Source: Nitrospira sp. CG24A (GTDB lineage Bacteria > Nitrospirota > Nitrospiria > Nitrospirales > Nitrospiraceae). From it: 39,580 bases of DNA. Positions 62 through 39,580 of the stretch are shown here, piece by piece (within the stretch, counting starts at the first letter, position 1; each line of letters begins with the position of its first letter). The notes beneath the pieces were generated by a model, which searched no databases, was not told the origin of the DNA, and saw only the letters and a program-made list of their open reading frames with translations. The stretch is from NCBI GenBank assembly GCA_002869925.2, contig NEWT02000034.1, forward strand, positions 83,554-123,133. The letters run 5' to 3'. Both the position numbers and the translations under genes were made by a program.

Positions 62-327
62 CTAAGCTTCGGTTGGACAATCCATTAAACCATTTTGGCG
101 TGCCAGAACAAAATCGGTTTCAAAGATGGCATAGGAGGACGGAGTGAGCCCCACTTTACGGTACACTGCTTGCGCGACGCTGTTGTTCTCTTCGACGTAC
201 AGGCGGATCCCACAGACATTCGGGTTTGTCTTGGCGGTAGCCATTACGATCTGATGCATTTGGCGAAAGACGCTCTGTCTACGCCAAGCAGGAAATACGA
301 CAGAGGGAGCGATGACTCCAAAAACAT
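62..327 (-). pseudogene. Truncated GNAT acetyltransferase (C-terminal part)
   Basis: The 3' part encodes a recognisable GNAT C-terminus: the acetyl-CoA loop region PAWRRQSVFRQMH, then IRLYVEENNSVAQAVYRKVG and ETDF near the end. Family members are about 150-170 residues long and only about 80 are present. The upstream residues of the open frame come from the adjacent 125-bp repeat (starting at 328), which contributes an artificial ATG at 355. The N-terminal beta-strands and helices of the fold are missing. The simplest reading is a gene cut by a deletion with one end at the repeat. The canonical QGV in the acetyl-CoA motif reads QSV, also consistent with decay. Expression as a short protein cannot be excluded. 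Confidence 0.65.
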
Positions 328-452
328 CAGGATGCTCAAAAAGGCCGTCCAGCAAGGCCGCAGGCGAGTCGAAACCGGAGGCGTACCCTCATGGGTACGT
401 TGAGGATTTCGAAGAGACGAGAACGAAGCTGGCGGGCTTTTTCAGCATCCTG
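328..452 (+). repeat. 125-bp dispersed palindromic repeat, copy 1
   Basis: The terminal inverted repeats are CAGGATGCTCAAAAAGGCC at the left and, reverse complemented, CAGGATGCTGAAAAAGCCC at the right. The centre carries a hairpin GTACCC-TCAT-GGGTAC. The right end runs straight into the AAGGAGG ribosome binding site of the next gene. It is homologous in the same orientation to 819-942 and in inverted orientation to 2822-2946. No transposase is encoded, so it is a non-autonomous, MITE-like or extragenic palindromic element. Confidence 0.85.
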
Positions 453-7188: not shown

Positions 7189-7860
7189 CTATGGCCGGGG
7201 ATCTAACTCAATAAGTCCTTTCCGTATGGCCAGGATCGCCGCTTGCGTGCGGTCGTATACTTGTAGCTTATGAAAAATATTGCGCACATGATTCTTGACG
7301 GTCTTTTCGCTCAGGTCCAAGTTATTGGCGATTTCCTTGTTCGTCTTCCCATCTGCGACCAAGCGTAAGACGGTGATCTCTCGTTCCGTCAGGTCGTGCT
7401 CGACCCATCCAGGCCTTTTCCCCTTCTTCTGAGACATCAAGGAAAACTCCGCCAAGATCTTACTCGCGACAGACGGATGGATCAGTGACTCGCCTTTGTA
7501 GATCGCACGAATCGCGGCGACGATCTGGGAGGACTCGGAATCTTTCAAGAGATATCCCGTGGCGCCGGCACGCACCAAATCAAAGATATATTGTTGTTCG
7601 TCATACATCGTCAGAGCCACGATTCCGATGTGAGGAAACTCACGCTTGATTTGTCTGGTCGCTTCAACTCCGCCCATCCGGGGCATACTCACATCCATCA
7701 GCACAACGTCGGGGACCAACGTCCTCACCTTCTCGACTGCTTCCATACCATCCTGAGCCTCGCCAACAATATGAATGTCGTCTTTCGTCTTGAGGATTGC
7801 GGCCAGTCCTTCGCGTACGACGCGATGATCGTCCGCGATGAGCACCTTAATTTTCTCCAT
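7189..7860 (-). CDS. NarL/FixJ-family response regulator
   Basis: The 223-residue protein has a receiver domain (about 4-125) with the acidic pair DD at 10-11, phospho-acceptor Asp56 in VVLMDVSMP, and Lys in YLLKDSES. A LuxR-type HTH output domain follows (about 155-215; LTEREITVLRLVADGKTNKE and NLDLSEKTVKNHVRNIF). It is the cognate regulator of the upstream histidine kinase: the ATG lies inside the kinase 3' end with a 14-base overlap, implying translational coupling. Targets are not evident; lpxC lies downstream on the same strand, but no binding site is recognised. Confidence 0.93.
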   Translation of the reverse strand: MEKIKVLIADDHRVVREGLAAILKTKDDIHIVGEAQDGMEAVEKVRTLVPDVVLMDVSMPRMGGVEATRQIKREFPHIGIVALTMYDEQQYIFDLVRAGATGYLLKDSESSQIVAAIRAIYKGESLIHPSVASKILAEFSLMSQKKGKRPGWVEHDLTEREITVLRLVADGKTNKEIANNLDLSEKTVKNHVRNIFHKLQVYDRTQAAILAIRKGLIELDPRP

Positions 7861-8959
7861 GGGACATCATCTCCTTTTTCGCCAGGGGAATGTCAACGAC
7901 GATGGCCGTACCACGCCCTTTCTTCGACTCGATCTTGGCTTCACCACCCACGAGTCGAGCCCGCTCCATGATTCCGCGAATCCCAAAATGGTCCCATTTA
8001 TTGGGATCGCGCAGCACGGTGTCCATATCGAATCCCACGCCGTTGTCCTTGATGGTGACCTTGAGACGTTCGGGATCGATGTCCAGGCCCACAGTGACCC
8101 GGGTCGCTTTCGCGTGCCGTTCCACGTTGCTCAGAGCCTCTTGCACAATGCGAAATAGAAAGATCTTGGTACGCGGGAACAAAATCTGTTCATCGCCGGA
8201 GACGCGGAACTGCGTCTTGATATGGTACTGGGTCTCATACGAGGTGAGATAGTTGGTCAGGGCCGGAAACAGCTCCATCTTGTCGTAGTGGAGGGGACGA
8301 AGATTGAAAATGACTTGCCGCGCCTCCTGGATGGCCAACTTCAGCTGGGCCTTACTCTCCCTCACGGTGGCCAGGCCGACTTTCGGACTTTTTCGAATCT
8401 GTTGCAGGGCCAGATCCAGCTTGAAATTCACCCCAGCCAAATTCTGCACGAGGCCATCGTGCATCTCACAGGCAATGCGTGTCCGTTCCTCCGTCACTGC
8501 CACACCCGTCTCCTTGACATACAGTCGATAGAGCGATTGATATTTGTTCAAGGTTTTTTCGATCTCTGCCGTGGCGCGGATGCGGGCTTCGATGAGTTCC
8601 CACATGAACTTTGCGCTGGCCCCACCGATGATGGTGACGCCCATCCGATGGAAATCCTGGAGCAGCTCCCAGACCTTCGCGTTACCAGACACGTCGATAA
8701 TGAGATCGACGCGCTCAAGGTCCAACAGTCGCCGGTAATCGCGAGTCACAGGGATCCCAAGCCGTTTCGCCAGTGCGACGCCCGGAGCATTGACTTGGAT
8801 CTCGGCTACACACACGATTTTGACCAGTGGGTCTGTCGCAAAGATCTCGATCAGCGCCTTGCCGCCGCGGCCTGCGCCGATGATCGCCACATGCGTACCG
8901 CTTGGCGCTCCGGTCTTGCGTAGTTGCTTAGGAGGCTTGGATTCGATTGTCGGCATCAT
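7847..8959 (-). CDS. Histidine kinase (HisKA_3) with N-terminal Rossmann domain
   Basis: The 370-residue protein has no membrane segment. Residues about 20-125 form a dinucleotide-binding-like Rossmann fold: VAIIGAGRGGKAL with a glycine-rich loop, VKIVCVAEI at the second strand and DLIIDVSGN further on. After a helical linker (about 120-160) comes a NarX/DegS-type dimerisation domain with phospho-acceptor His167 in ACEMHDGLVQNL. The ATPase domain (about 260-360) has the N-box SNVERHAKA and the DNGVGFD G1 box. A cytoplasmic kinase sensing NAD(P)H/NAD(P)+ or a related nucleotide is the natural inference, not demonstrated. It overlaps its regulator gene by 14 bases and lies 97 bases after nrdR. 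Confidence 0.9.
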   Translation of the reverse strand: MMPTIESKPPKQLRKTGAPSGTHVAIIGAGRGGKALIEIFATDPLVKIVCVAEIQVNAPGVALAKRLGIPVTRDYRRLLDLERVDLIIDVSGNAKVWELLQDFHRMGVTIIGGASAKFMWELIEARIRATAEIEKTLNKYQSLYRLYVKETGVAVTEERTRIACEMHDGLVQNLAGVNFKLDLALQQIRKSPKVGLATVRESKAQLKLAIQEARQVIFNLRPLHYDKMELFPALTNYLTSYETQYHIKTQFRVSGDEQILFPRTKIFLFRIVQEALSNVERHAKATRVTVGLDIDPERLKVTIKDNGVGFDMDTVLRDPNKWDHFGIRGIMERARLVGGEAKIESKKGRGTAIVVDIPLAKKEMMSHGEN

Positions 8960-10831: not shown

Positions 10832-11305
10832 TTAGGCCTCAGCGGGGGCGGTTTCAGCTTCCTGTTTCTTCACGACATGGACCACCACAGTGGCCGTCAC
10901 GTCCCGTGGAAGTTTAATCGGTACAGTAACGGTGCCGAGTTCCTTAATCGGATGATCCATCTGGATTTTGCGCCGATCTACAGTGAATCCCTGTTCTGCT
11001 AATTGTTCGGCTATGTCCTTCGACGTGACAGACCCGAACATCTTGTCGTCCTTGCCGACCTGAGCCTGTATGGTGATGGACACGGCCGAGATGCTCTTGG
11101 CGTGGGTTTCGATTTCCAGTTTTTCTTTCTTCGCCCGTTCGCCAGCCACGCGCTTGATATGCTCAAACTCCTTGATGCTCCGACTGTTGGCCAGCACCGC
11201 TTTTTTTCGTGGAAGCAAAAAATTCCGCGCGTACCCAGCTTTCACATCGAGGAGGTCTCCGAGATGTCCGACTCCATCCATCGTTTCTTGTAGAATGACC
11301 TTCAT
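10832..11305 (-). CDS. rplI: 50S ribosomal protein L9
   Basis: The 157-residue protein binds 23S rRNA and bridges the base of the L1 stalk. [17 protein letters not shown] and the [15 protein letters not shown] segment are the N-domain signature. A long charged connecting helix and the C-terminal domain follow. The tail ends with a short Ala/Glu extension. The start at 11305 is fixed by AAGGAG 8 bases upstream; a longer open frame reaching to 11566 is not coding, because it crosses the promoter and the divergent gene. It is the first gene of the operon with glyA and nrdR. Confidence 0.96.
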
Positions 11306-11336
11306 ACCCCTAACTCCTTCTGTTGGAAAGGGAAAG

Positions 11337-11365
11337 AGGATACTGGGGGGGCAGCAAAAAGTCAA
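11337..11365 (-). promoter_or_regulatory. Promoter of the rplI-glyA-nrdR operon
   Basis: On the minus strand, TTGACT (11365-11360) and TATCCT (11342-11337) are separated by 17 bases. This predicts a start near 11330, about 25 bases before the rplI ATG and just ahead of its AAGGAG site. The spacer contains a run of seven C. Confidence 0.65.
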
Positions 11366-11414
11366 TTCGCAATGTATGGAAAGATCTTCGCTGAACCACG
11401 GTCGTGAATCGATC

Positions 11415-12962
11415 ATGAACGAATACATACGCTCACTGGAATGCTGGACAGGCATAAGAACTCGACCGTATGATGGTGCGCGAGACGCAGGCAACATCTC
11501 CAAGAATCTAATGACCGCGCGAAACCTTCTCGAAGTATGGGCCCTCCGCCTTGAAGCCGAACACACACGAGCGCGGGGAATAGCGCGTGACCAGCCAATT
11601 ACTCAGGTCGCAGGCAGACTTGTACGCACAATCGGCACATTGCACCTCTATGAGTTGACACTCCCCCAGGGTTCGTCGATTGAGCACGATACACCCGTCT
11701 CGATCATTTCTTCAGACGACATTGAGCCAATCGAGGGCATTGTGCTTGGAGGGCAAGACAATGTGGTTCTCGTACAAACATTCGATGCCTTTGGACAGTC
11801 CTGTGCCGACGCAACCGTGGTTCCCGATCGAGCCGGGTTTCTGGCCACCTCAGCCAATCGATTGCGCAGCATGGTTGCTCAGCCGGATGCCTATCGACTT
11901 GGCCCGGCAGATCGCTTAGCCCCCCTCCTCAACCTGGCGACAGGAGGAGAGGAGCCTTCCAGGTCGGGCACCGGATCGTCAACACTCACGACCCTCTGGG
12001 AGGACGAGCTTCCGGCGAGACGAACGCGATTGGCCATGCTAGCAATCGAACTGATTCGCGCGAATAAGCGCATTCTGGTGATCTGCCCTCATCACCAGGC
12101 AGCGGATGCACTCATCGGGACCATCGCACGTGCCATGAACGCTGCAGGGCTGATGTATAAAACGTGGGTCAGTCGCTACGAAATGGCATTGGCTCAACAG
12201 GCCGAAGGCATCGGGATTCAGGAGCTGGGATTCGAAGCGCAAATGCACCAGTTTTATGCCAAGTCTCGCGCGGATAAAGCCGCACTCAGACGAAAGTACG
12301 ATCGATTCCGCGAACTCACGCCCATACTGGCCTATAAGGGGCAAAAGCAAAAGGATCTCGATGAAGTGCGTCTCCTGGAATGGCGATTGCTGACGCAGGT
12401 CAGCGACCTGCAGGCCAAGATCAAAGAGGCCAACGCCACGCTAGAAGAATATGAGAATCTTCCTCTCCTCAAACGATTGAGCCTGCAGGTCGTCGGGAAA
12501 AACGTGGAGTCGCTGCATCAATATGTCGAGCTGTACGAGAATCAGTGCGTTGAACTGAGGAGAGAGCTCGATATCGCCAAAGCCCGCATCGATGGACTCG
12601 TGCCGGAAGCCGCCGTACCCAAAGATATGCGCGCAGAGTTTGCCGAACTCAAAGAGGAGATTGTCCGGCTTGGCGGGACGAAACAGATCAGGGAGCTGCT
12701 TGCAGCCGAAGAAAACACGAACCGCCAGGCCTTCATTCAGAATCGGCGTCTCGTCGTCACCACGGCATCGCGAGTGCTGAGCGATCCCCTATTCAGTCGC
12801 ATCCGGTTCGATGTCTTAATCGCCGATGAAGCGCCGTGGATCGCGGCGGCCCCATTGCTCGGCGCCGCCGGGCTCGCCCACGAGAGGATCGTGATCAGCG
12901 GCGACCGGCGCGACATTGCATCATCTGGACTGTGGGCTTCACCTGAACTTGAGCTTCGGTGA
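11415..12962 (+). CDS. Degenerate superfamily-1 helicase-like protein
   Basis: The 515-residue product (from the ATG at 11415) resembles the front half of UPF1/Dna2-type SF1 helicases. After an N-terminal beta-rich region comes NKRILVICPHHQAADALI, equivalent to motif Ia. A long coiled-coil insertion follows (about 290-430). Then come LVVTTASRVLSD, the Walker B-like DVLIADEAPW, and motif III-like IVISGDRRDI. The Walker A lysine loop is missing where expected (SGTGSSTLTTL lacks GKT/S), and the protein stops right after motif III, so the second RecA domain is absent. It is unlikely to be an active helicase. No strong ribosome binding site is seen; ATG 11376 is an alternative start. The stop lies 62 bases before tRNA-Leu, so 3' truncation at an integration site is possible. 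Confidence 0.7.
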   Translation: MNEYIRSLECWTGIRTRPYDGARDAGNISKNLMTARNLLEVWALRLEAEHTRARGIARDQPITQVAGRLVRTIGTLHLYELTLPQGSSIEHDTPVSIISSDDIEPIEGIVLGGQDNVVLVQTFDAFGQSCADATVVPDRAGFLATSANRLRSMVAQPDAYRLGPADRLAPLLNLATGGEEPSRSGTGSSTLTTLWEDELPARRTRLAMLAIELIRANKRILVICPHHQAADALIGTIARAMNAAGLMYKTWVSRYEMALAQQAEGIGIQELGFEAQMHQFYAKSRADKAALRRKYDRFRELTPILAYKGQKQKDLDEVRLLEWRLLTQVSDLQAKIKEANATLEEYENLPLLKRLSLQVVGKNVESLHQYVELYENQCVELRRELDIAKARIDGLVPEAAVPKDMRAEFAELKEEIVRLGGTKQIRELLAAEENTNRQAFIQNRRLVVTTASRVLSDPLFSRIRFDVLIADEAPWIAAAPLLGAAGLAHERIVISGDRRDIASSGLWASPELELR

Positions 12963-15036: not shown

Positions 15037-15111
15037 TTATCCGGCTTGGCCTTCTGTATCAAATACGGTAAAACGAAAGAGGTCTTGCACTCTCTTCCAC
15101 CGTGAACACAT
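15037..15111 (-). CDS. Possible 24-aa micro-ORF
   Basis: The frame reads MCSRWKRVQDLFRFTVFDTE and four more residues to a TAA. GGAGG lies only 3 bases before the ATG, which is closer than ideal. It is 82 bases downstream of the twin micropeptide genes on the same strand. Nothing else supports it. Confidence 0.2.
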   Translation of the reverse strand: MCSRWKRVQDLFRFTVFDTEGQAG

Positions 15112-15192
15112 CCACCTCCTGCCCTGATACCCACACCAAAGACGCGCCACGCTCACTCGTACGAATGCGAACACGCACATTCCGGCATACCA

Positions 15193-15279
15193 TCATTTGT
15201 CATACGGGAACCATATAATGATAGCCGCCCCTAGCACGAACACGCCGACAAAGGCACCAAACGCAATAGCAAGTTCCAC
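15193..15279 (-). CDS. Single-TM micropeptide, downstream copy (28 aa)
   Basis: The product is a 28-residue hydrophobic helix that begins MELAIAFGAFVGVFVLGAAI and ends IIWFPYDK. It starts at GTG, 6 bases after GGGAGG, and stops at TGA. It is nearly identical to the upstream copy except Gly for Ala at residue 8 and the lack of a C-terminal tail. The pattern (one acidic residue, about 22 hydrophobic residues, aromatic-Pro-Tyr-Asp-Lys end) is that of a one-helix membrane protein. Such peptides often serve as accessory subunits of oxidases or transporters; no such partner is adjacent and the sequence does not match CydX or KdpF as I remember them. Confidence 0.65.
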   Translation of the reverse strand: MELAIAFGAFVGVFVLGAAIIIWFPYDK

Positions 15280-15327
15280 GATAACCTCCCTGGGTTGATG
15301 ATGTATTTAGCTACAGTTCCTCTGAAT

Positions 15328-15435
15328 CTACCGATCTCGCAAGCTCATATCTTTGTCATACGGGAACCATATAATGATAGCCGCCCCTAGGACGAACACA
15401 CCGACAAAGGCGGCAAACGCAATGGCAAGTTCCAT
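15328..15435 (-). CDS. Single-TM micropeptide, upstream copy (35 aa)
   Basis: The 35-residue product begins MELAIAFAAFVGVFVLGAAI, continues IIWFPYDK and has a short charged tail DMSLRDR. The ATG follows GGGGAGG by 5 bases. A promoter at 15518-15546 would give a leader of about 75 bases and could serve both copies. The tail is created because the TGA of the other copy is a sense codon here. The function is unknown; insertion in the inner membrane with the tail outside or inside cannot be decided from sequence. Confidence 0.68.
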   Translation of the reverse strand: MELAIAFAAFVGVFVLGAAIIIWFPYDKDMSLRDR

Positions 15436-15517
15436 GACAACCTCCCCGAGTTGATGGTGTATTTAGCTACGACTTCCCCCTGAATCTATTGATCTCGCAA
15501 GCCCAATGACGGTGGCA

Positions 15518-15546
15518 TTAATACCATAAGAGCCTGTTCAGGGCAA
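15518..15546 (-). promoter_or_regulatory. Promoter of the micropeptide pair
   Basis: On the minus strand TTGCCC (15546-15541) and TATTAA (15523-15518) are 17 bases apart. The predicted start is near 15510, ahead of both micropeptide genes. Confidence 0.5.
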
Positions 15547-15991
15547 CTAGTACTTTAGCGGTGCATAGATAGCTCATTCATTGTCCGTTTTTGTCACACA
15601 TGATCGGTTCGGGTAAAGGGGGACGCCCTCAAGAAGGGCTACAACGAGAGGGGGACGGGTACGTTATATGGTGCAGGACAAGGTCTCGACGCGTTGATTT
15701 TGAGAGATAATACAGACCAGAACCCACAATGGAGAAGAAAGTGGGGGATGCTCGGGGTTACGGAAAAATCCTTTGACCACTTGAGCGGTCGGTATGACGT
15801 GGCTGGGAGGCACCATTGGCAGATGATCGACCGGATCTTCGCACACGCAGGCCCCGCTATTGTTTTCATGCCCCCCCCGACGCTGACCCATTGGCTTCTG
15901 CTGGATCGTGCTGTATCCTGAGGTTCGGTGGACATACGGGGATATGCAACGTAAGACATAGGAAGACAGGCAAACCATGCACTGAGCTCCC
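15547..15991. other. Stretch without a recognisable gene
   Basis: A frame at 15694-15921 on the plus strand lacks a ribosome binding site and resembles no family I know. Two GGGGGACG runs (about 15620 and 15650) recall short repeats found beside REP-associated transposases, but no transposase is readable. Confidence 0.3.
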
Positions 15992-23223: not shown

Positions 23224-23252
23224 TTGACACATTGGACAAAATGGTTTATACG
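23224..23252 (+). promoter_or_regulatory. Promoter of the zinc-ribbon/cupredoxin genes
   Basis: TTGACA (23224-23229) and TATACG (23247-23252) are 17 bases apart. ACATTGGAC overlaps the -35/spacer and ACATTGAAC lies downstream (about 23273), both matching the complement of the GTTCAATGT box in the divergent promoter. These three boxes are candidate regulator sites. Confidence 0.75.
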
Positions 23253-23301
23253 TTGGACGTACATGAAACAAACATTGAACAGTCAACCTATGGAGCAGAT
23301 T

Positions 23302-23565
23302 ATGGCAAGAGCAATCACAAATAAAACGAGAGCTGAGATGCTCGGAAGTCACACATACTCTTCCGCAGTCCAATATGAATGGACGTGCACCCGGTGCGGA
23401 GGACTCATGGTGAACGACTCCTACATGGACTTACTAAACAACGTCGGTGAGTCGAAATTTTCCGCGAAGCGCTGTGTGCAATGTGGTGAGGTTGTTGATC
23501 CCGTCATTCTGCGTAATCGAGGAACCCGGCAAGAGCCGATGACGGCTTCTTCGGCATTGGTCTAA
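23302..23565 (+). CDS. Small zinc-ribbon protein
   Basis: The 87-residue cytoplasmic protein begins MARAITNKTRAEMLGSHTYS. Two C-x2-C pairs, TCTRCGG and RCVQCGE, about 40 residues apart, form a zinc-ribbon-like site around SYMDLLNNVGESKFSAK. The family is unknown to me beyond that. The ATG at 23302 has GGAG 7 bases upstream and matches the start of the paralogue at 39006. Its C-terminus is shorter than the paralogues at 24101-24277 and 39006, which share an additional AGK...CVT tail. Nucleic-acid or protein binding is inferred from the ribbon only. It is first in the run of genes opposite the CarH-like regulator. Confidence 0.75.
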   Translation: MARAITNKTRAEMLGSHTYSSAVQYEWTCTRCGGLMVNDSYMDLLNNVGESKFSAKRCVQCGEVVDPVILRNRGTRQEPMTASSALV

Positions 23566-28115: not shown

Positions 28116-28484
28116 ATGATACACAACAAAATTCTTTTCCCAGGGATTGTCCTCATCGCGCTACTCGGAGCCTCACCCCTGCAGGCTGATCCCATCGATC
28201 CGGCTCGGCATCCGCAGCCGGATAAGGCCCAGACGGTGCATCAGGCCGAGCATGATGTGGACCAAGCGTGGGAGATCTATCATCGCGCCGCCTTAGGTGG
28301 GACGGTCGCGTCCCCTGCCCTTCAGGCGGACATCGAGCAGCACCTGCACGAAGCAAGAACCCTCATCACCCAGGCGCAAGAGGCAGCTGAGCTGGGAGAT
28401 GAGCGTCAAGTGCAGACTCTCATAAGCCAAGTGAAAGTCCATACCACCATGGCCATCGAGGGGAGCAAGGAGCAAAAGAAATGA
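28116..28484 (+). CDS. Small exported helical protein
   Basis: The 122-residue protein has a signal peptide (ILFPGIVLIALLGASPLQA) and then only charged amphipathic helices (AEHDVDQAWEIYHRAA, DIEQHLHEARTLITQAQEAA). Several His residues (HQAEHD, HLHEA) recall small periplasmic metal-binding helical proteins of nitrifiers, but similarity is weak and I do not name it. GGAGG lies 8 bases before the ATG. Its stop overlaps the next ATG by 4 bases (ATGA), which indicates translational coupling to the third FGE-type gene. Confidence 0.75.
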   Translation: MIHNKILFPGIVLIALLGASPLQADPIDPARHPQPDKAQTVHQAEHDVDQAWEIYHRAALGGTVASPALQADIEQHLHEARTLITQAQEAAELGDERQVQTLISQVKVHTTMAIEGSKEQKK

Positions 28485-29323
28485 CGAAAGGTCTGAGGAG
28501 AAGAGGGACTCACTGGAGCGCGATTGCAATGATGGCCCTAGGCTGTTGCATGGCCATCGCGCCTGTCGTCGCAGCATCGACGGCCTCAAAAGAGCTCGAC
28601 TCGGTCGTCATGGTGACGATTCCTGCTGGAGAATTCTTGATGGGGAGCTTGAACGGAAAAGGCCGGGCCGACGAGTGGCCGCAGCGATCGGTGTACCTCG
28701 ATGAGTTTGCAATCGATCAAGTCGAAGTGACGAATGCACGGTTTCTAGCCTTCGTTGCGACCACAGGCCATCGAAGCCCTCCGAATCCCTATGGCACCGG
28801 CCCACTCGTGTCCGTCAAGGGAATCGAGCAGCTTCCGATCGTGCAGACGACCTGGTACGACGCCAAGGCCTATTGTAGTTGGGCCAAAAAACGGCTCCCG
28901 ACGGAAGCGGAATGGGAGAAGGCCGCTCGTGGTATTGACGGTCGTCTCTTTCCCTGGGGCAATGAACCGGCGACGTCGAAGCGGGCGAACTTTGACCGTG
29001 AGTGGGAAGAGGAGCACACCTTGCATCCCGTCGGGTCTTTGCCAGACGGAGACTCACCCTACGGGGTGAAGGATCTGTCCGGTAATGTTCGAGAGTGGGT
29101 GCAGGATTGGTATGACGCCGAATACTACCAGCATGCGCCGGATCGGAACCCGCAGGGTCCTGAGAAAAAAGGCGTGGTCCGATCGATTCGCGGTGGATCG
29201 TGGCATAGCCCGATCTCGGACATCACGACGACGGCACGCGGGCGAGGCGGATTCGCGCTGCAGACCCATGGGACAGGCTTTCGCTGTGCACGGGGTCTCG
29301 AGGGCCAGACCCAGCAGAAGTAG
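28481..29323 (+). CDS. Exported FGE/SUMF1-fold protein 3
   Basis: The 280-residue protein has a signal peptide (MMALGCCMAIAPVVAA) and a shorter FGE-type domain: MVTIPAGEFLMGS, DQVEVTNARFLAFV, KKRLPTEAEWEKAARG, LSGNVREWVQDWYD, SIRGGSWHS, then GFALQTHGTGFRCARG. It lacks the TPR-like tail of the two other copies and is more divergent. The catalytic Cys pair of sulfatase-activating FGE is not seen. The ATG lies within the preceding stop (4-base overlap). The last 30 codons recur, degraded, at 39297-39379. Confidence 0.87.
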   Translation: MTKGLRRRGTHWSAIAMMALGCCMAIAPVVAASTASKELDSVVMVTIPAGEFLMGSLNGKGRADEWPQRSVYLDEFAIDQVEVTNARFLAFVATTGHRSPPNPYGTGPLVSVKGIEQLPIVQTTWYDAKAYCSWAKKRLPTEAEWEKAARGIDGRLFPWGNEPATSKRANFDREWEEEHTLHPVGSLPDGDSPYGVKDLSGNVREWVQDWYDAEYYQHAPDRNPQGPEKKGVVRSIRGGSWHSPISDITTTARGRGGFALQTHGTGFRCARGLEGQTQQK

Positions 29324-39005: not shown

Positions 39006-39379
39006 ATGGCAAGAGCGTTCACGAAGAAAACGAAGGCTGAACAGTCCAGGAGGCACACGCTCTCTTCTGAAGCCTCGCATGAATCGACATGCGCCAGGTG
39101 CGGCGGACTCATGGTGACCGACTTCTGGATGGATTTGCTGTTCTGCATCGGCGAAACGGAGTTTGCCGCGAAACGCTGTGTGCAATGTGGCGAGATTGTC
39201 GATTCCGTCATTCTTCGCAACCGAGGAACTAAACAAGAACCGGTGACCACTCTGTCCGCAGGGAAGAAGGTACCAAACAATTGTGTGACGAAAGGGCGCG
39301 GAGGATTTGCGCTGCAGACTCACGGGACAGGCTTTCGCTGTGCTCGTAATGTGGAGAGGGTCAGCCCCAACAGAAGTAG
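39006..39379 (+). pseudogene. Zinc-ribbon paralogue fused by readthrough to an FGE tail
   Basis: The first 98 codons encode an apparently intact zinc-ribbon protein: MARAFTKKTKAEQSRRHTLS, TCARCGG, KRCVQCGE and a tail ending NNCVTK. In the fragment at 24275 the equivalent position is a TAA stop (GTGACGTAAGGG); here it reads GTGACGAAAGGG, so translation continues. From 39297 the frame is the end of the third FGE-type protein, GGFALQTHGTGFRCAR, and after a one-base insertion its own stop is also missed; the open frame ends at 39536. The zinc-ribbon part keeps its Cys residues and promoter, so a chimeric product may be made. The rest of the FGE gene is deleted. Confidence 0.75.
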
Positions 39380-39490
39380 ACGAAGTGGTAGTAGGATGAA
39401 ACCAGATGACCACAATAGAAATACGGAGGCCGGTTTCTTTTCCTCATTGAGGAGGGCGCCGCGAATCCGCACGGCGTCTCCCGCTGAGGT

Positions 39491-39527
39491 AGATAGGCCC
39501 CTCTCTACACCCCGGAGGGGCCTGTCT
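39491..39527. terminator. Strong hairpin near the end of the window
   Basis: AGATAGGCCCCTC pairs with GAGGGGCCTGTCT with one mismatch around CTACACCCCG-type loop sequence. No T-run follows. It lies inside the readthrough frame of the chimeric gene and may end its transcript. Confidence 0.45.
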
Positions 39528-39580
39528 GCTCGGTGAGCAACTGGGCTGGTGACAAGATGGAAGAGTGGGATGGTCAGGGG

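Follow-up and report, generated by a model that had tools for sequence, protein, structure and literature searches.

The window, i.e. the whole analysed stretch of 39,580 nt, derives from Nitrospira sp. CG24A (GCA_002869925.2, contig NEWT02000034.1, positions 83,554-123,133 of the forward strand). The preliminary description had reported tandem 156-bp units encoding twin single-helix micropeptides, each preceded by a strong ribosome binding site, and both points were borne out. Direct repeats at 15196-15314 and 15352-15470, spaced by 156 bp, were 92% identical over 119 nt, and a further repeat stretch (15319-15347 and 15477-15505) showed 86% identity; the tandem was not in the list produced by Tandem Repeats Finder for the window. 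Two ORFs of 35 and 28 aa are located on the minus strand, with GGAGG 5 nt ahead of the start codon in both. The combined Shine-Dalgarno and residue pattern matched twice in the window and not once in 100 shuffles. The features of the locus are as follows.

15191-15502, minus strand: two tandem 156-bp units, from repeat comparison
15328-15435 (stop included), minus strand: upstream micropeptide ORF, ATG start, 35 aa, MELAIAFAAFVGVFVLGAAIIIWFPYDKDMSLRDR; orthologues with identical 156-bp arrangement in genomes G028, G007 and G026, purifying selection
15193-15279 (stop included), minus strand: downstream micropeptide ORF, GTG start, 28 aa, read as MELAIAFGAFVGVFVLGAAIIIWFPYDK; from sequence and selection
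15441-15447, minus strand: Shine-Dalgarno of the upstream copy, GGGGAGG, spacing 5; from sequence, GGAGG kept in all aligned units
15285-15290, minus strand: Shine-Dalgarno of the downstream copy, GGGAGG, spacing 5; from sequence, GGAGG likewise kept in all aligned units
15448-15473, minus strand: conserved segment of the leader, reading GTAGCTAAATACACCATCAACT in the upstream copy and recurring ahead of the downstream copy at about 15291-15314; from alignment
15513-15552, minus strand: conserved promoter-like element with -35 TTGCCC (15541-15546), spacer of 17 and extended -10 TGG-TATTAA (15518-15523); by consensus matching and conservation
15134-15195, minus strand: conserved 3' element with hairpin, single copy 3' of the downstream ORF; from sequence conservation
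15070-15098, minus strand: weak terminator-like stem followed by GTTTT; from sequence, absent from the scanner's list

Transcription unit and its conserved flanks

The upstream copy is longer by a 7-residue tail (DMSLRDR), because the repeat starts directly after codon 28 and the frame reads into the duplicated leader. Each 156-bp unit consists of leader, Shine-Dalgarno and ORF, and there is a single promoter-like element and a single 3' element for both ORFs. Since the unit contains neither of these elements, the pair is most simply explained by one mRNA, and the tandem of the window looks like a bicistronic unit.

Across the family, the promoter-like element follows the consensus CTAGTTGCC-N(8-9)-GCTTATGGTATT and represents the best or near-best sense-strand sigma-70 site in most lineages; G015 and G017 have TTGACT-16-TATCAA or TATAAT, at -42 to -44. 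The leader segment GTAGTCGAATCCACCATCAACCC sits 5' of the Shine-Dalgarno. The 3' element, GCCAGAATGTGCGCCTCCCCATTCTTACGATTGAGCGGG, folds into a hairpin in several species, with compensatory changes in 4 of its 13 pairs. It resembles an intrinsic terminator with a U-tract in G015, G019 and G020 and is degenerate, with a weak stem, in the window. Among the 32 genomes of the genus the promoter-like element was credible solely ahead of the micropeptide gene and the 3' element solely after it, and no credible orphan copies of either were found. Judged from this arrangement, the micropeptide gene is a free-standing transcription unit with a gene-specific promoter-like element, a leader and a 3' hairpin.

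Conservation, selection and duplication of the peptide

A search of 120 related genomes located the peptide in the window's own genus. With a profile built from 15 members and the family threshold set at E below 1e-12, 20 copies were recovered in 13 of the 32 genomes of this genus, with a clear gap to all other matches, and no credible match was obtained in the remaining 143 genomes that belong to the taxonomic family. When one genome per GTDB species was scanned with a pattern, the hits were confined to MAGs of Nitrospira type (Nitrospira sp. RSF3, RSF6 and RSF11, Nitrospiraceae ES-bin-41 and others); viral contigs gave none. The family consensus is ME(I/L)xxxxGxxVxxFxxGAxxILWxPYDK, with M1, F14, I21, P25 and Y26 invariant in the alignment. 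The peptide is predicted to form a hydrophobic single helix with hydropathy in the transmembrane range; AlphaFold2 in single-sequence mode gave one helix over residues 2-33 (mean pLDDT 86), a model informative on little besides helicity.

The preliminary description held that substitutions between the copies mostly spare the protein, and the counts agree with it: 4 synonymous versus 1 nonsynonymous change between the window copies (codons 2-28), 5 versus 0 between those of G026 and 12 versus 4 between the dispersed copies of G020. The comparison of G005 with G030 gave 10 versus 3. Pooled over six comparisons, which we picked as roughly independent, the synonymous excess had p of about 6e-12 by Nei-Gojobori-type site counting. 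The two copies of G006 showed no such excess (0.5 versus 7.5). Positive selection between them was considered and is not claimed, as 7.5 of 8 nonsynonymous changes is close to the neutral expectation of about 76%. It should be added that the differences between these copies (L064, 12609-12927), which are 232 bp apart, are concentrated at the C-terminus, FTPYEKK versus WWPYDK.

Lack of conservation in relatives and frame-disrupting changes in orthologous loci, either of which had been named beforehand as counter-evidence, were not observed: the peptide is kept in 13 genomes, and all 20 family ORFs are intact, with no decayed ones. These intact ORFs and the synonymous excess rule out a chance ORF or pseudogene. 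The micropeptide gene is thus real, conserved and kept intact by purifying selection in related species. Searches of Pfam, NCBIfam, Rfam, PDB, plasmids and phages gave no match to the peptide or the locus, in concordance with the earlier remark that nothing similar was known, and the family is previously undescribed. A mobile or phage gene was likewise rejected, for there was no viral, plasmid or phage match and the one plasmid hit (E = 7) was due to chance.

The tandem is common to G000, G028, G007 and G026. In the tree of their eight copies, upstream copies group with upstream and downstream with downstream ones, except in G007 (bootstrap 81-98%). This topology indicates that the tandem duplication is older than the split of the four species, and the G007 copies have converted each other. 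Separate, independent duplications are found in G006 (the pair 232 bp apart) and in G020 and G019 (dispersed). The preliminary description had proposed a need for either dosage or a heterodimer. Lineage-specific residues (L/I3, F/L10 and I/V/L22) are common to the two copies of each genome, which argues for dose or a homo-oligomer and against specialised partners. Together with the bicistronic look and the G007 conversion, these residues leave dosage plausible and favoured; the heterodimer was not supported, since the copies track each other and differ chiefly in the 6-7 residue tail that arises at the duplication junction.

A nucleotide model detected one more unit, in G014, with promoter, leader and 3' element kept around a hydrophobic but very different peptide, MEAPFIILALLFIVFCGLTGLILGINNNPK, that lacks WxPYDK. 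The flanks are therefore able to outlast the peptide sequence, and the constraint on the latter would be loose. A second, different micro-ORF, MEVLFI[IV]LAVIAAGAALVFF..., was noticed behind GGGAGGGGATC-ATG in G014 and G031 (L165, about 300-400, plus strand; L166, about 300-400, minus strand); these two genomes represent a sister lineage where the peptide is divergent or missing.

The survival of the flanks in G014, as well as the compensatory pairs in the 3' hairpin, would suit a regulatory or dual-function RNA, in which leader and hairpin would be the functional parts and the ORF of secondary importance. Against it stand the strong synonymous excess inside the ORF, the modest extent of the covariation, the weak stem in the window and the lack of any Rfam match, so that we regard such an RNA as very improbable.

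Distribution and gene neighbourhood

Homologues of AmoA, AmoC and HAO are present in the window's genome, which by its gene content is that of a comammox Nitrospira. Its genus is probably Palsa-1315, described as comammox clade B (PMC12625717). At least one of the three markers was found in 20 of the 32 genomes of the genus. All 14 carriers, that is the 13 genomes with family members (G000, G004-G007, G015, G017, G019, G020, G024, G026, G028 and G030) and G014, fall within these 20, and none within the 12 marker-less genomes (hypergeometric p of about 1e-4, calculated by hand); within the genus, the gene is present in ammonia oxidisers only. Six comammox genomes of the genus are without the peptide (G013, G023, G025, G027, G029 and G031), absences among genomes being blurred by MAG incompleteness. 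Two of the six, G031 (99%) and G027 (94%), are apparently complete, and the loss of the peptide from them suggests that its function is not essential.

The 12 marker-less genomes form one clade in a single-gene (glyA) tree, and in the other comammox genus the 57 genomes that bear AmoC lack the peptide. The co-occurrence with AMO thus reflects a single split within the genus and does not recur in the second comammox genus, i.e. it is not independent of phylogeny, and the link to ammonia oxidation is suggestive only. Along this line, the peptide could serve the comammox ammonia-oxidation machinery (AMO, its respiratory chain or electron-transfer partners) as a subunit or assembly factor specific to the lineage, with the duplication adjusting its amount to the stoichiometry of an abundant complex. 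The restriction of all 14 carriers to marker-bearing genomes speaks for such a role, as do two amoC genes located about 2-4 kb from the tandem in G028, an arrangement not seen in other lineages. Opposed to it are the lack of an independent replicate, as the marker-less genomes are one clade, the 57 genomes of the other genus, the six peptide-free comammox genomes and the amoC upstream regions, which do not carry the promoter element; a promoter shared with amoC was rejected on the latter ground. We consider this role, a special case of the accessory membrane protein favoured below, improbable. At the place of the G028 amoC pair (L062, 5353-7771), the window contains an AAA_11 helicase-like ORF close to tRNA-Leu (11070-12962), a possible insertion hotspot.

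The neighbours of the gene vary by lineage and give no hint of a pathway, with redoxin and DUF4832 in the window, an FGE-like protein in G005, a histidine kinase with Hpt in G019, DabA in G024 and a RES domain in G006. A conserved gene neighbourhood was rejected, being present only among close relatives. The preliminary description had named accessory subunits of a membrane complex as an example; for this candidate role no partner gene linked across lineages was found in those examined.

Several side observations concern other genes of the window. Zinc-ribbon-like small proteins (TCARCGGLMV...) occur as paralogues at 39006-39536 and 23224-23565, and a close relative apparently lies upstream of an amoC in G026 (L097). 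Within the ORF at 39006-39536, the stretch GRGGFALQTHGTGFRCAR matches the tail of the ORF at 28481-29323 exactly, a pattern resembling the duplication and fusion of a gene fragment. Judging by its translation, the ORF at 7847-8959 is histidine-kinase-like with an N-terminal dehydrogenase-like stretch, and it adjoins a response regulator (7189-7860).

Proposed function of the peptide

The main and serious rival to an accessory membrane protein is a type I toxin, i.e. a membrane-depolarising hydrophobic peptide silenced by antisense RNA. Toxins of the ZorO, Ldr, Ibs and Fst type are hydrophobic peptides of 29-35 aa encoded by free-standing, often tandemly duplicated loci, and ZorO was found by the criterion of tandemly duplicated small hydrophobic ORFs (PMC8309996, PMC3919570). 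The peptide described here resembles them in size, in its single hydrophobic helix with a charged C-terminus, in its free-standing intergenic unit with a leader and in recurrent tandem and dispersed duplication; the patchy presence and the divergent G014 peptide would also fit. However, no adjacent antitoxin RNA was found in the vicinity of the locus, the part of the genome that the search covers: antisense promoters did not occur at a consistent place, the leader showed no complementarity of 13 nt to DNA up to 1.5 kb away besides the duplicate itself, and Rfam gave no match. As to a ribosome binding site hidden in the mRNA, the mean unpaired probability of GGAGG in the 5' part ranged from 0.08 to 0.62 with no consistent pattern. 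The duplicates share one promoter, and the second unit has none of its own, whereas zor-orz repeats have a toxin gene and an RNA gene per locus. Purifying selection without decayed copies, together with the absence of Pfam or NCBIfam toxin-family matches, also sets the peptide apart, and a toxin seems unlikely on balance.

The best explanation overall, to which we assign a probability of roughly 0.6, is a free-standing gene for a small membrane protein with an accessory or regulatory action on a membrane partner. We prefer it on account of the constraint on the protein, the likeness maintained between the copies and the lack of any evident antitoxin-like RNA. Weighing against it are the lack of a linked partner, the loss from apparently complete comammox genomes, the divergent G014 peptide and the G006 copies with no synonymous excess. 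On present data the gene would occur only in the comammox part of a single Nitrospira genus, and its predicted product, about 28 residues long, is a small protein of the inner membrane with an acidic N-terminus, one helix bearing small-residue packing faces (G8, G12, G17 and A18) and a C-terminal aromatic anchor, WxPYDK. The peptide would most likely bind a larger membrane protein, or itself, and thereby modulate or stabilise it. In the window, where the gene is duplicated inside its putative transcript, one mRNA may yield two nearly identical peptides and hence a higher dose.

PetN of cytochrome b6f is presumably similar to the peptide in its M(D/E)I start, length of about 29 aa and aromatic helix end; it was rejected as a homologue, since neither the PetN chains of the PDB nor Pfam gave a profile match. 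The proposed action is modelled on CydX, KdpF and AcrZ and their partners, with which the peptide shares length (about 28-50 aa), one helix, conservation, a strong ribosome binding site and loose sequence constraint. Unlike them, it has no family match and does not lie in a partner's operon. CydX itself lies in cydAB operons (PMC4325964); a cytochrome bd small subunit was rejected, as no profile match was obtained (Pfam, NCBIfam, PDB) and the neighbours in the examined lineages are not cydAB.

A conserved, lineage-restricted and selected micropeptide with its own promoter-like element would give membrane proteomics, and cryo-EM work on native comammox complexes, something concrete to look for. 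Genes this short are commonly skipped by annotation pipelines, and cultivation of comammox Nitrospira, which are important nitrifiers, is difficult. Moreover, with tandem copies in what looks like a shared transcript and flanks kept as the peptide diverges, the locus offers a clean case for the evolution of micropeptide genes.
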